Assembly (NCBI GenBank): GCA_005772955.1
Contig: SXID01000027.1
Location: 1 to 64,000, forward strand
From: Planctomycetia bacterium
Lineage (GTDB): Bacteria; Planctomycetota; Planctomycetia; Gemmatales; Gemmataceae
Direction: 5' to 3'
Length of the DNA stretch: 64,000 bases
The first letter of the stretch is position 1, and each line of letters starts with the position of its first letter. Positions 40,779 through 55,650 of the stretch are shown here, piece after piece. The translations under genes and the position numbers were made by a program. A model generated the notes under the pieces. The model ran no database searches. It was not told the origin of the DNA and saw nothing but the letters and a program-made list of their open reading frames with translations.

Positions 40779-41513
40779 ATGTCCGAATTCGCCACGCACC
40801 AGTCCGATTCCGACGCCGACCGGACGCCGCTCCCCGCCGGAAAACTCTCAGCCAATGGGCAGTGGATCTTCGGATCGGTCTACGCGGGATTGGCGCTCAT
40901 CGGCTTCAGTTTCGGCGTCTGGGCCGGTGCGAGCAAGCCGAAGCCCGCCGAGGTCGCGGAGATCAAGAAGGACAACACCGAAAAGCCGCCGGTCACGCCA
41001 CCGGTCGTGAAGCCGCCGGTCACGCCACCGGTCGAGCCAAAGCCGAAAGACAACACGCCGCCGGTTGTCACGCCGCCGGTTGAACCGAAGCCCAAGGACA
41101 ACACCCCGCCGGTAGTCGAGCCAAAAAAGGAGCCGGAGCCGGAGCCGAAACCCAAGGTTGAGATCCAACAGGTCGCGTTCAAGGACGTATCAGCTCTCTT
41201 CGTTCGATACTGCAACAACTGCCACGGTGCGGTTGGAAAGCCAAAGGGCGGGGCCGACCTCCGCACGCTCGTGGCCATCATGAAAGGCGGCGAGAACGGC
41301 GTGATGGTCAAGCCCGGTGAGCCGGACAAGAGTTCGCTGTATCTGTCGATCAAGATGGGGACGATGCCGCCGGACGGGAAGCCGGGACCGAACGAGAAAG
41401 AACTGAAGATGATCCACGACTGGATCGCGGGCGGCGCGAAGCCGCGGCGCACGGTCCGCGGCCGGCGTGAGGTGAAGCCCGCACGCCACACCGGTTACTC
41501 GCCGATGACGTAG
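40779..41513 (+). CDS. Membrane-anchored planctomycete-type cytochrome c
   Basis: The 244-residue protein has one N-terminal membrane helix (GQWIFGSVYAGLALIGFSFGV), a proline-rich linker (residues about 65-125) made of repeated PPVTPPV/EPKPKDNTPPV units, and a heme-c domain with CNNCH (Cys145, Cys148, His149). The likely axial Met is in IKMGTMPPDGK. This is the single-heme domain widespread in planctomycetes. The encoded DNA repeats are imperfect tandem copies. The start is the ATG at 40779. Confidence 0.82.
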   Translation: MSEFATHQSDSDADRTPLPAGKLSANGQWIFGSVYAGLALIGFSFGVWAGASKPKPAEVAEIKKDNTEKPPVTPPVVKPPVTPPVEPKPKDNTPPVVTPPVEPKPKDNTPPVVEPKKEPEPEPKPKVEIQQVAFKDVSALFVRYCNNCHGAVGKPKGGADLRTLVAIMKGGENGVMVKPGEPDKSSLYLSIKMGTMPPDGKPGPNEKELKMIHDWIAGGAKPRRTVRGRREVKPARHTGYSPMT

Positions 41514-42228
41514 CCGAACAACACTTCGGCCGCCTTCTGGCGTTCCACCCCGAACAGGTTCGCCTGTTCCTTCGCGACCTTGATCGCGTCTTGCAACTTG
41601 CGCACACGGGCGAGGATCGAATTCTTACGATCCGTCGCGATACGCCCGCTGTACAGGATCTGCGTCCCCGTCACAACCGGTACGTCCTTCGTGAACAACT
41701 CGGTCTGTGCCGGGTGTTCGGTCGTTGTCGGGTACTTCACGATGACGGTCGGTTCCGTGCTCGTGCGCAACGACTCGTTCGCCTTGCCGCAAAGCAGCCT
41801 GCTGTTCGGGTCGTGCGCCCACTCTTCCGCCGGGTCCGGTTTCGGCAGTTTCGACACGAAAGTTTCGAGGTCGTTCACCTGCTTGTCGAGGAACAGAAGC
41901 GTGGTAACCGGCACGTTCGCGAGGACGGACTTGCCGTCCACGACGATGTCGGCCTTCGCGGACTGGTTCACGGTGAGCTGCGTCCGCACGAGGTTCCACA
42001 ACTCGGCCCACTTGTCGCGGGCCTGTCGAATCAGGTCGTCGGCGCGCCGCAGCACGCGCTGGCTCTCCGGTGGCAGTTTCTGGCCGTTGACATCAACGAG
42101 CGGGCGGTACGTCCGCTCACGCCTGGTGAAGAGTTGTTCCTTCTGGATGAGTTTGTACAGCCCCGTGATTTGCTTCTACGCGTCGGCCCTTTCGCGGTGA
42201 CGACGGCGTTAATCTGGTTGAGTTTCGG
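41495..42228 (-). pseudogene. Frameshifted conserved protein of unknown function
   Basis: The main frame (to about 42170) reads LYKLIQKEQLFTRRERTYRP, LPPESQRV, KADIVVDGKSVLANVPVTTL, LLFLDKQVNDLETFVSKLP and HPAQTELFTKDVPVVTGT, a pattern I associate with a conserved planctomycete/actinobacterial family of unknown role. The expected opening (KLNQINAVVTAKG) lies just upstream at about 42187-42225, but in another frame and with no start codon. A TAG precedes the main frame. An intact translation would begin only at the GTG at 42055. Its end overlaps the cytochrome gene by 19 bases. Confidence 0.5.
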
Positions 42229-53766: not shown

Positions 53767-53863
53767 AATCCGCTCGCGGGGTTGAACCTCGTCCCCACAC
53801 GCGGCATCATATCTATTAGCACAGGCGTGCAGGCTGAACTTCAGCTTCAGGTTCAGGCTCAAC

Positions 53864-53951
53864 GCGGAACACCCACAATGCAGGTTCGACTCCTGCTCCC
53901 GCCACTTTCCACCACGGCAGGATAGCCCAACTGTAGAGGCAGGCGTCCCGC
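53864..53951 (+). ncRNA. tRNA-like cloverleaf with permuted halves, unit 1
   Basis: In 5'-3' order the parts are: strand GCGGAACACC (53864-53873), CACAAT, a perfect T-arm GCAGG-TTCGACT-CCTGC (53880-53896), acceptor-like TCCCGCC (53897-53903), an 11-base spacer, acceptor-like GGCAGGA (53916-53922), TA, a D-arm (GCC...GGC, 53925-53940), A, and GGCGTCCCGC (53942-53951). The acceptor strands pair 6 of 7 and the outer strands 8 of 10; every mismatch is A with C. Halves thus lie in reverse of normal tRNA order. It may be two truncated tandem tRNAs instead. Confidence 0.4.
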
Positions 53952-54029
53952 ACAGAACGATTCAGGTTGTCACGCCAGATCCAGTACCGTGCCGAGGTGT
54001 TCAATCGAACGACCGGTGAAAAACGTCAG

Positions 54030-54109
54030 CCTCGAAATGCCGGTTCAATCCGGTCCCCCACGCTCTCGCCCAAACCCTTGTGGGGGTAGTGAAATCGCAT
54101 GACGCGAGG
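54030..54109 (+). ncRNA. tRNA-like cloverleaf with permuted halves, unit 2
   Basis: Order: CCTCG (54030-54034), AAAT, T-arm GCCGG-TTCAAT-CCGGT (54039-54054), acceptor-like CCCCCAC (54055-54061), 18-base spacer, acceptor-like GTGGGGG (54080-54086, perfect 7 bp), TA, 16-base D-like segment, CGAGG (54105-54109, perfect 5 bp to CCTCG). This is the same part order as unit 1 with unrelated sequence. The T-loop is six bases, one short of canonical. Confidence 0.4.
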
Positions 54110-54195
54110 TTATCAGGCTAAGCGCCGGCGACCGGTTTACCGTGAACACTCCCTGAGACGGCACACCAAAACCTTAGCAAGGCTTTGGAACCAGC

Positions 54196-54232
54196 CCCGG
54201 TCGAACGGCTACTTCGACCGGGCCGCTTTTTT
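54196..54232 (+). terminator. Intrinsic terminator just upstream of cca
   Basis: CCCGGTCGAA (54196-54205) and TTCGACCGGG (54213-54222) form a perfect 10-bp stem with a seven-base loop, followed by CCGC and six T. It lies eight bases before the cca ATG, so it ends a plus-strand transcript coming from the 53.8-54.2 kb region. A second hairpin, CCAAAACCTT-AGC-AAGGCTTTGG, lies just before it at about 54166-54188. Confidence 0.8.
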
Positions 54233-54240
54233 CCTCCCTC

Positions 54241-55650
54241 ATGACCGACCGCGAGTTCGCACTGGATGTTGTTCGTACGCTCCAAAATGCCGGGTACGCG
54301 GCACTCTGGGCTGGCGGGTGCGTGCGCGACGAGTTCCTAAGCCTCACTCCACAAGACTACGACGTTGCGACTTCCGCACGCCCGGAGCAACTCCGCCCGC
54401 TGTTCCGGCGACGGAATGAGATCGGCGCTCACTTCGGCGTGGTGCAAGTGATCGGGCCGAAAGGCAACGACGGTGAGTGGCTCACGATCGAGGTCGCGAG
54501 TTTCCGCTCCGACGGAATCTACACAGACGGCCGGCGTCCCGACACGGTCACGTTCTCTTCGCCCGAAGAGGACTCGCAACGTCGTGACTTCACCATCAAC
54601 GGCATGTTCTTCGACCCTGTGAAGAACGAACTCATCGACTACGTCGGCGGCCGCGCCGACCTTGCCGCAAAGGTTCTCCGCGCGATCGGCGACCCGGTCG
54701 CGCGATTCACTGAGGACAAACTGCGCATCCTCCGAGCCGCGCGCATGGCGGCACGATTCGCGATGACCATCGACCCCGCGACACACTCCGCCGCGAAGCG
54801 AATGGCTGCGCAGATTCAGGTTGTGTCCGCAGAGCGCATCGCTGAGGAACTGCGGAAACTGCTCGTCCACCCGAACCGCGCCCGGGGATTGGAGCACCTC
54901 CGCGAGTTGTCGCTCATCCCACCGATCCTGCCTGAGATCGCGACGTTCGGCACATGGGCGAGCGGGATTCGCGTCGTCGAGACGCTTCGCGGACCTACCC
55001 CCCCTGCCCCCCTCCCTGAAGGGAAGGGGGAGGAAGATTCGCCGCTTGCGGCTTCGCGGAACGCGCGCGAAGAGATACTCGCAACGCCGCGAGTGGCTTT
55101 AAACTCCCCCTTCCCTTCAGGGAGGGGGGCAGGGGTGGTAGGTTCTCCCGTCTCCTTCCCGCTCGCGTTCGCAGCGGTGCTGCACACTCTCGGCAAGGAA
55201 ACCGCGGAGCGCATTGCGATACGACTGAAACTGTCGAACGTCGAAACGGTACGCGTGTGCTGGCTCGTCGAGAAGTTTGCGTATCTCACGGACGCACCGA
55301 CGATGCGCGCGAGCAAACTCAAGACTATTCTGGTTCACCCCGGCATAGGCGAACTACTCGCGCTGCACCGTGCTATCGCACTCGCGAGCGACAGTAGTTT
55401 GGAACACGTCAAATTCTGCGAACGCGTGTTGCGCGAAACGCCCCCAGGAGTACTGAACCCCACACCTGTGCTGACCGGAGAAGACCTGATCGCGATTGGA
55501 TTGAAGCCCGGACCCGCGTTCAAGCGGCTGCTCGATGCCGTGCGGGAGGCACAACTTGAGGGGCGAGCGGCGTCGAAGGAGCAGGCACATGTTCTGGTGA
55601 AACAGCTTCTCGCAGAACCGCCACCCGCATCTGAACCACCGCCGGCGTAA
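54241..55650 (+). CDS. cca: CCA tRNA nucleotidyltransferase with in-frame repeat insert
   Basis: The enzyme adds or repairs the CCA end of tRNAs. The 469-residue protein has GGCVRD (residues 25-30), the catalytic DxD in PQDYDVATSA (39-41), RRDFTINGMF (114-123) and VSAERIAEELRKLLVHP, all class II signatures. Residues about 252-300 (PAPLPEGKGEE through PSGRGAGVVG) come from a 147-bp inverted repeat inserted in frame. It starts right after a terminator with no clear ribosome site. The 3' end overlaps the opposite glycosyltransferase gene by 131 bases. Confidence 0.92.
   Translation: MTDREFALDVVRTLQNAGYAALWAGGCVRDEFLSLTPQDYDVATSARPEQLRPLFRRRNEIGAHFGVVQVIGPKGNDGEWLTIEVASFRSDGIYTDGRRPDTVTFSSPEEDSQRRDFTINGMFFDPVKNELIDYVGGRADLAAKVLRAIGDPVARFTEDKLRILRAARMAARFAMTIDPATHSAAKRMAAQIQVVSAERIAEELRKLLVHPNRARGLEHLRELSLIPPILPEIATFGTWASGIRVVETLRGPTPPAPLPEGKGEEDSPLAASRNAREEILATPRVALNSPFPSGRGAGVVGSPVSFPLAFAAVLHTLGKETAERIAIRLKLSNVETVRVCWLVEKFAYLTDAPTMRASKLKTILVHPGIGELLALHRAIALASDSSLEHVKFCERVLRETPPGVLNPTPVLTGEDLIAIGLKPGPAFKRLLDAVREAQLEGRAASKEQAHVLVKQLLAEPPPASEPPPA
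54995..55141. repeat. 147-bp inverted-repeat element inside cca
   Basis: The arms 54995-55032 and 55104-55141 are 38 bases each and match at 37 positions as inverted repeats (CTACC...GGGGGAG). The total length is 49 codons, so the frame is kept. The centre holds a TTGCGGCTTCGCGG piece similar to that at 63148-63189. Confidence 0.85.

Follow-up and report, generated by a model that had tools for sequence, protein, structure and literature searches.

We analyzed a 64,000-nucleotide (nt) stretch of DNA from a Planctomycetia bacterium of the family Gemmataceae (assembly GCA_005772955.1, contig SXID01000027.1, positions 1 to 64,000), which is referred to here as the window, and found that the element at positions 53864-53951 adopts the fold of a tRNA in circularly permuted order and is the first of two such folds in one conserved RNA. 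The whole non-coding RNA comprises 414 nt (53819-54232, plus strand, as delimited by the conserved block, covariation and the matches of our covariance models R1 and R2) and consists of two domains of the same plan, each a basal helix with a permuted tRNA-like module at its tip, followed by a terminator. This RNA is inherited together with the gene of a DUF7873 protein. The element is probably a tRNA-mimic module, one of a pair in a stable RNA of about 415 nt, which forms the RNA half of a two-component DUF7873 particle.

The first-pass annotation of the window, which was prepared from the sequence alone, had described this element as tRNA-like with its two halves in reversed order, and the parts it named are indeed present on the plus strand. 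The T-arm (GCAGG-TTCGACT-CCTGC, 53880-53896) is paired at 5 of 5 positions. The acceptor strands TCCCGCC (53897-53903) and GGCAGGA (53916-53922) pair at six of seven positions with one A-C mismatch, and a 12-base loop (53904-53915) closes this stem. The claimed TA corresponds to U8 (53923) and A9 and is followed by the D-arm (53925-53940), so that this segment extends over 53923-53940. The outer strands (53864-53873 and 53942-53951), which stand in the position of the anticodon stem, form 8 of 10 pairs with two A-C mismatches. This helix of module 1 is the weakest of those compared; it is variable in relatives, where it is paired in 61% of the cells and often replaced by other pairing. Domain 1 (53824-53976) is closed by the basal helix P1 (53824-53837 with 53962-53976), which is invariant within the family and covaries across phyla.

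Module 2 (54029-54110, plus strand) shows the strongest covariation and consists of an anticodon-position stem (54029-54034/54105-54110), a T-arm (54039-54054), an acceptor stem (54055-54061/54080-54086), U8 (54087) and a D-arm (54089-54103). Its layout is that of a tRNA, with a 7-bp acceptor, U8 plus one base, a 4-bp D-stem, one base at position 26, an anticodon-position stem of 5-6 bp, a variable loop of 4-5 bases and a 5-bp T-stem. The T-loop generally has seven bases and six in the window copy. The module is carried by three basal helices within 53989-54164 on the plus strand (P2a 53989-53993/54160-54164, P2b 53997-54002/54144-54149, P2c 54013-54016/54125-54128), and compensatory changes were found in all three. 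It can be seen that each module is a tRNA body in permuted order with a loop-capped acceptor of 7 bp and an anticodon end that opens into a long basal helix. Neither module has an anticodon loop, since the stem at this position opens into P1 or P2, and for this reason the modules are tRNA mimics and not tRNA genes or decayed tRNAs.

When the DNA of positions 53780-54230 was searched against 95 genomes of the family, homologues were obtained from 18 further Gemmataceae genomes. Compensatory changes maintain the acceptor, T, D and basal helices in these 18 relatives, and the presence of such changes had been set in advance as the test of the permuted fold: 40 pairs are changed on both sides compared with a mean of 24.1 after shuffling. 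The number of cells changed on both sides was 155 versus 52.8 in the shuffles, and none of 500 shuffles reached such a value. Paired cells amounted to 92.5%, and in slid controls, in which one strand was shifted by a base, this share dropped to 36-46%. T-stem 1 is paired in 100% and acceptor 1 in 99% of the cells, and both covary; the acceptor occurs, for instance, as GGCGGGA/TCCCGCC, GAAGGGG/CCCCTTC and GGTGGGA/TCCCACC. In module 2, the T, acceptor, D and anticodon-position stems each carry 3-4 pairs changed on both sides (variants of D-stem 2 include GCCT/AGGC, GTCT/AGAC, GCTC/GAGC and GTGA/TCAC). Across phyla, four of the six base-helix pairs of P1 are changed on both sides in an alignment of domain 1 that was fitted to the covariance model and is hence biased towards it.

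These data uphold the permuted tRNA-like RNA proposed by the first-pass annotation and dispose of its second suggestion, decayed tandem tRNA genes, as the helices covary across phyla with the permuted order kept. Decay or a chance resemblance could account for the tRNA-like parts, and real tRNA arrays do occur elsewhere in this genome. However, the compensatory changes refute this explanation, the RNA is conserved in two phyla and in phages, the 7-bp acceptors match in permuted order only and ARAGORN reported no tRNA at the locus, so that we give it practically no credence. A pattern of T-arm, acceptor, loop, acceptor, U8 and D-arm matched the window exactly twice (53880 and 54039, plus strand) and had no match on either strand of 300 first-order-Markov sequences of 64 kb, but as it had been loosened once both sites were known, it serves as a control and not as a p-value. 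Because of this fitting to a site already known, we place the weight on the comparative evidence. The folding energy of the RNA is not unusual (z = -0.22), but the minimum free energy structure nonetheless recovers both modules. In Rfam, no family reached its cutoff at the locus, where a sub-threshold tRNA-Sec fragment and chance matches were the sole hits; the RNA has no Rfam entry, and no description of it was found in the open-access literature searched.

To follow the RNA through other genomes we used two covariance models, R1 for domain 1 and R2 for domain 2, which gave full-length matches of 139.6 and 162.5 bits to the window copy. With both models, one strong copy was found per carrier genome, and strong R1 matches occurred in about 20 of the 102 genomes of the order. 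Among 398 Planctomycetia genomes, R2 reached 60 bits or more in 23, two of them in another family. The DUF7873 gene was detected in 27 of the 398 genomes, which include these 23; in the other four (G094, G108, G184, G379) the RNA adjoins the gene and scores lower. The RNA is consequently present in 27/27 genomes with DUF7873 and a comparable match in 0/371 without (Fisher's exact p = 1.7e-42, uncorrected for shared ancestry), and a full-length R2 match of at least 60 bits was never seen without DUF7873. Five further R2 matches of 36-39 bits were partial, and those inspected were tRNA arrays or copies of the bacterial Y RNA YrlA. In 13 planctomycete genomes DUF7873 directly precedes the RNA, and both are encoded on one strand. 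In about 10 carriers the two are widely separated, so that an effect of neighbourhood alone is unlikely. In the genome of the window they lie 11.6 kb apart on opposite strands, whereas they are adjacent in most others.

Outside this class, the DUF7873 alignment was scanned against 84,980 species genomes, which yielded at least 568 relatives, and 80 loci were kept, mostly from Streptomyces, Actinomadura, Nonomuraea, Kitasatospora and other Actinobacteria plus Ktedonobacterales. Here, R1 located the RNA directly 3' of DUF7873 in nearly all kept loci, with the second unit further on, and this arrangement holds for nearly all of the actinobacterial, ktedonobacterial and planctomycete loci examined. 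The pairing of domain 1, basal helix included, covaries across the set from Actinobacteria and Ktedonobacterales. When 68 non-viral loci were compared, DUF7873 was the sole protein neighbour common to essentially all of them. The gene also occurs in 73 phage records, and 74 of 80 viral DUF7873 loci gave an R1 match (E <= 0.001) directly 3' of it. In Gordonia, Arthrobacter and Klebsiella phages the RNA again lies 3' of DUF7873, several times within or beside tRNA arrays.

Co-occurrence with tRNA arrays and phages is also a property of another large structured RNA, GOLLD (PMC9569102). However, the architecture and the partner of GOLLD differ, and neither the Rfam GOLLD nor the ROOL model matched the RNA locus. 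Gordonia phage GodonK carries a tmRNA (transfer-messenger RNA) in its tRNA array (L274, 2384-2912; 90 bits, above the cutoff), part of which is labeled tRNA-His in the record, and a large array of at least 16 tRNA genes is located on another contig of the window's genome (L156, G000:C5:21500-25000).

Pfam lists the function of PF25283 (DUF7873) as unknown. The protein family at our loci is the same one and is conserved across planctomycetes, actinomycetes and phages. No informative DUF7873 family was found in NCBIfam, PHROG or PADLOC, and no link of DUF7873 to an RNA in the open-access literature searched. An AlphaFold model of the protein had a mean pLDDT (predicted local distance difference test) of 83.

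Circularly permuted tRNA genes occur in some algae and archaea. They share with the RNA the reversed order of the halves, but in the RNA a conserved basal helix follows on the anticodon end, and the modules come in pairs. Permuted two-piece tmRNA is similar in that its T-half stands 5' of the D-half and both are joined through the acceptor ends. The first-pass annotation had drawn on these two comparisons, and neither is the best one, as the anticodon loop is missing, acceptor loops go down to 4 nt in homologues and a normal tmRNA is encoded elsewhere; no report of a permuted tRNA or tmRNA in planctomycetes was found in the open-access literature searched. If the modules were processed at their acceptor loops like permuted tmRNA, multi-piece RNAs with aminoacylated CCA ends would result. 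Apart from the order of the halves, this scenario draws on the acceptor-1 loop, which attains about 100 nt in some relatives: four loci (L008, L013, L017, L018) carry insertions of about 70-100 nt between the acceptor strands, and the ends of some of these are self-complementary. In Actinobacteria, however, the acceptor is again exactly 7 bp long and its loop often has just 4-9 nt, as in many homologues, and the 4-nt loops are too small for separate 5' and 3' ends. This argues for the acceptor being a capped mimic rather than a site at which tRNA ends are made. Furthermore, in place of the G3-U70 pair of tmRNA, module 1 has C3-G70 and the relatives have other Watson-Crick pairs, and no Rfam tmRNA model matched the locus. 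Processing of this kind appears very unlikely. A role as the tmRNA of this genome was rejected, as an ordinary tmRNA is present at C56:12838.

The alignment of the Gemmataceae homologues shows a conserved block with a promoter-like TTGAACCT...GCATCAT at its start and an intrinsic terminator at its end, and no conserved reading frame was seen in it. From the conserved GCACAGGCGTGCAG start, the 5' end of the RNA is placed at 53819, which should be taken as a prediction. The putative promoter (53782-53810, plus strand) belongs to the conserved upstream block and consists of TTGAAC, a spacer of 17 nt and CATCAT, 8 nt ahead of the RNA start; a scan with a strict promoter consensus did not report this block. 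The terminator (54196-54232, plus strand) is formed by the stem CCCGGTCGA/TCGACCGGG and a subsequent T run and ends about 8 bases ahead of the ATG of an open reading frame (54241-55650, plus strand), which was named from its sequence as tRNA nucleotidyltransferase (cca). The position of the RNA just upstream of cca, here and at seven other loci, could suggest a leader that senses uncharged or end-damaged tRNA and thereby controls cca. However, this gene is not a constant neighbour: it lies 3' of the RNA in 8 of 19 homologous loci and is missing from the remaining 11. For this reason we consider the RNA an independent gene. Since the RNA is, in addition, terminated ahead of cca and its constant neighbour in phages and Actinobacteria is DUF7873, a leader function is highly improbable. 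Within the cca coding sequence we observed an inverted repeat, CCCCTGCCCCCCTCCCTGAAGGGAAGGGGG, at 54991-55140, which is read through as PPAPLPEGKGEE...FPSGRGAGVVG and resembles an in-frame insertion of a palindromic element. An Rfam match to mir-8927 originates from this repeat and was rejected.

Several observations weigh against a DUF7873 particle. The DUF7873 gene of the window (41504-42190, minus strand; E = 5.4e-70) is broken. In comparison with its G024 counterpart, the start codon is lost, a 2-nt deletion and a 1-nt insertion are found near the 5' end and one in-frame TAG is present; residues that are invariant elsewhere are missing as well. The RNA itself has lesions in both modules, namely a C-A in acceptor 1, a D-loop 1 without GG, a shortened T-loop 2 and a G-G in D-stem 2, and two pairs are broken in its T, acceptor and D stems versus 0-1 in any aligned relative. 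Neither Foldseek nor VIA-align found a reliable relative of the DUF7873 model in the PDB. Finally, TROVE (PF05731), the gene of the Y RNA partner Ro60, is commoner in RNA-positive relatives (9/22 versus 6/73, p = 0.0009) and was detected in 15 of the 21 further genomes with DUF7873.

Because its DUF7873 gene is broken, the RNA of the window may be outliving its partner, and the sequence would be compatible either with a lineage that is losing the system or with errors in a draft assembly. It is well conceivable, although we lean slightly the other way, that the RNA is a relic in this organism, drifting after decay of the partner gene, while the family is functional elsewhere. The missing start, the frameshift, the TAG and the lost residues of DUF7873 as well as the module lesions speak for this, as does the transposase-type insertion that splits DUF7873 in G012. 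On the other hand, the promoter-like block, the terminator and the high scores with R1 and R2 are retained, and assembly errors may mimic decay. The G012 locus (L280, G012:C1:466500-469600) represents a second loss of the partner; its insertion of about 1.7 kb contains a transposase-like open reading frame, and the RNA is intact.

Among known RNAs, the bacterial Y RNA YrlA (Rfam RF02553) is the closest, and this comparison, like the DUF7873 partner, had been missed by the first-pass annotation. YrlA, which is 90-150 nt long, mimics tRNA in circularly permuted form and acts as a tether between Ro60 and PNPase (PMC8394870, PMC11472068). The crystal structure of the Salmonella RNA (PDB 6CU1) shows this permuted mimic (PMC11472068), and a decoy role of its tRNA-like domain has been raised for Salmonella (PMC7790460). 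Both RNAs have a T-arm, a closed acceptor hairpin, a D-arm and a long basal stem in place of the anticodon arm; in YrlA, this basal stem is the part that binds Ro60. However, YrlA has one module, whereas the 414-nt RNA of the window has two, and the partner of YrlA is Ro60/Rsr instead of DUF7873. The RNA might nevertheless be a strict YrlA in tandem fusion, with Ro60/Rsr as partner and DUF7873 as an accessory. In addition to the common fold and the enrichment of TROVE among carriers, diverged copies of the RNA obtain weak YrlA scores (28-36 bits), and true YrlA pairs in tandem adjoin TROVE genes in the same family (L093 in G041, L094 in G015, L095 in G007). In contrast, the YrlA model does not match the window RNA (15.1 bits versus a cutoff of 69). 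A Pfam search found no TROVE gene in the window's genome (G000), and TROVE is also absent from the 99-100% complete carriers G011, G012 and G016. G015 possesses both a separate YrlA pair beside TROVE and the DUF7873-associated RNA elsewhere, and at none of 68 DUF7873 loci was TROVE detected as a neighbour, although this search (phmmer with planctomycete queries) is a weaker test. A strict YrlA is therefore unlikely. Given the enrichment of TROVE in carriers and its presence in most other DUF7873 genomes, some interplay of the RNA with Ro60 is possible.

YrlA-like RNAs were also observed at other loci of these relatives. At L099 (G070), YrlA scores above the Rfam cutoff. Separate Gemmata loci (L100, G017:C96:4500-6000; L101, G009:C13:164400-165800; L157-L162) contain up to four tandem YrlA-like permuted modules with YrlA scores of 32-52 bits and no ARAGORN tRNA; at least two modules are present in L100, L101, L157, L159 and L160. 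In L101, a motif like GCGTACAAAC...ACGAACTCGTGCG flanks each module. As far as seen, these multi-module loci do not lie beside DUF7873.

For the DUF7873 particle, the following mode of action may be envisaged. DUF7873 would bind the RNA and keep hold of it, perhaps through the conserved basal helices, and the two elbows would keep one or two factors that recognise tRNA engaged. Candidates for such factors are PNPase or another exoribonuclease, an enzyme of tRNA processing or modification, and a toxin that attacks tRNA. The modules could bind such a factor, but aminoacylation, participation in translation and cleavage in an anticodon loop would not be open to them. Because they have neither a free 3' end nor an anticodon loop, the role left to them would be that of a tether or decoy, in line with what has been proposed for YrlA and Ro60. 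The position in phage tRNA arrays fits a decoy role, but does not prove it. In the organism of the window, where DUF7873 is broken, the RNA copy may be losing this role. We tentatively suggest that DUF7873 and the double tRNA mimic form an undescribed ribonucleoprotein family of bacteria and phages, in the latter beside tRNA arrays, which might serve as a two-headed decoy against factors that attack or recognise tRNA.

To our knowledge, the only previous examples of a permuted fold that mimics tRNA in bacteria are YrlA with Ro60 and, in part, tmRNA. The RNA described here would add a second, larger one, which has two permuted folds and a protein partner of its own and is spread over at least two phyla of bacteria and many phages. 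It would provide a lead to the function of DUF7873, together with covariance models with which the RNA can be found elsewhere, and it opens to testing the question of why phages that possess tRNA arrays encode RNAs that resemble tRNA but are unable to act as such.
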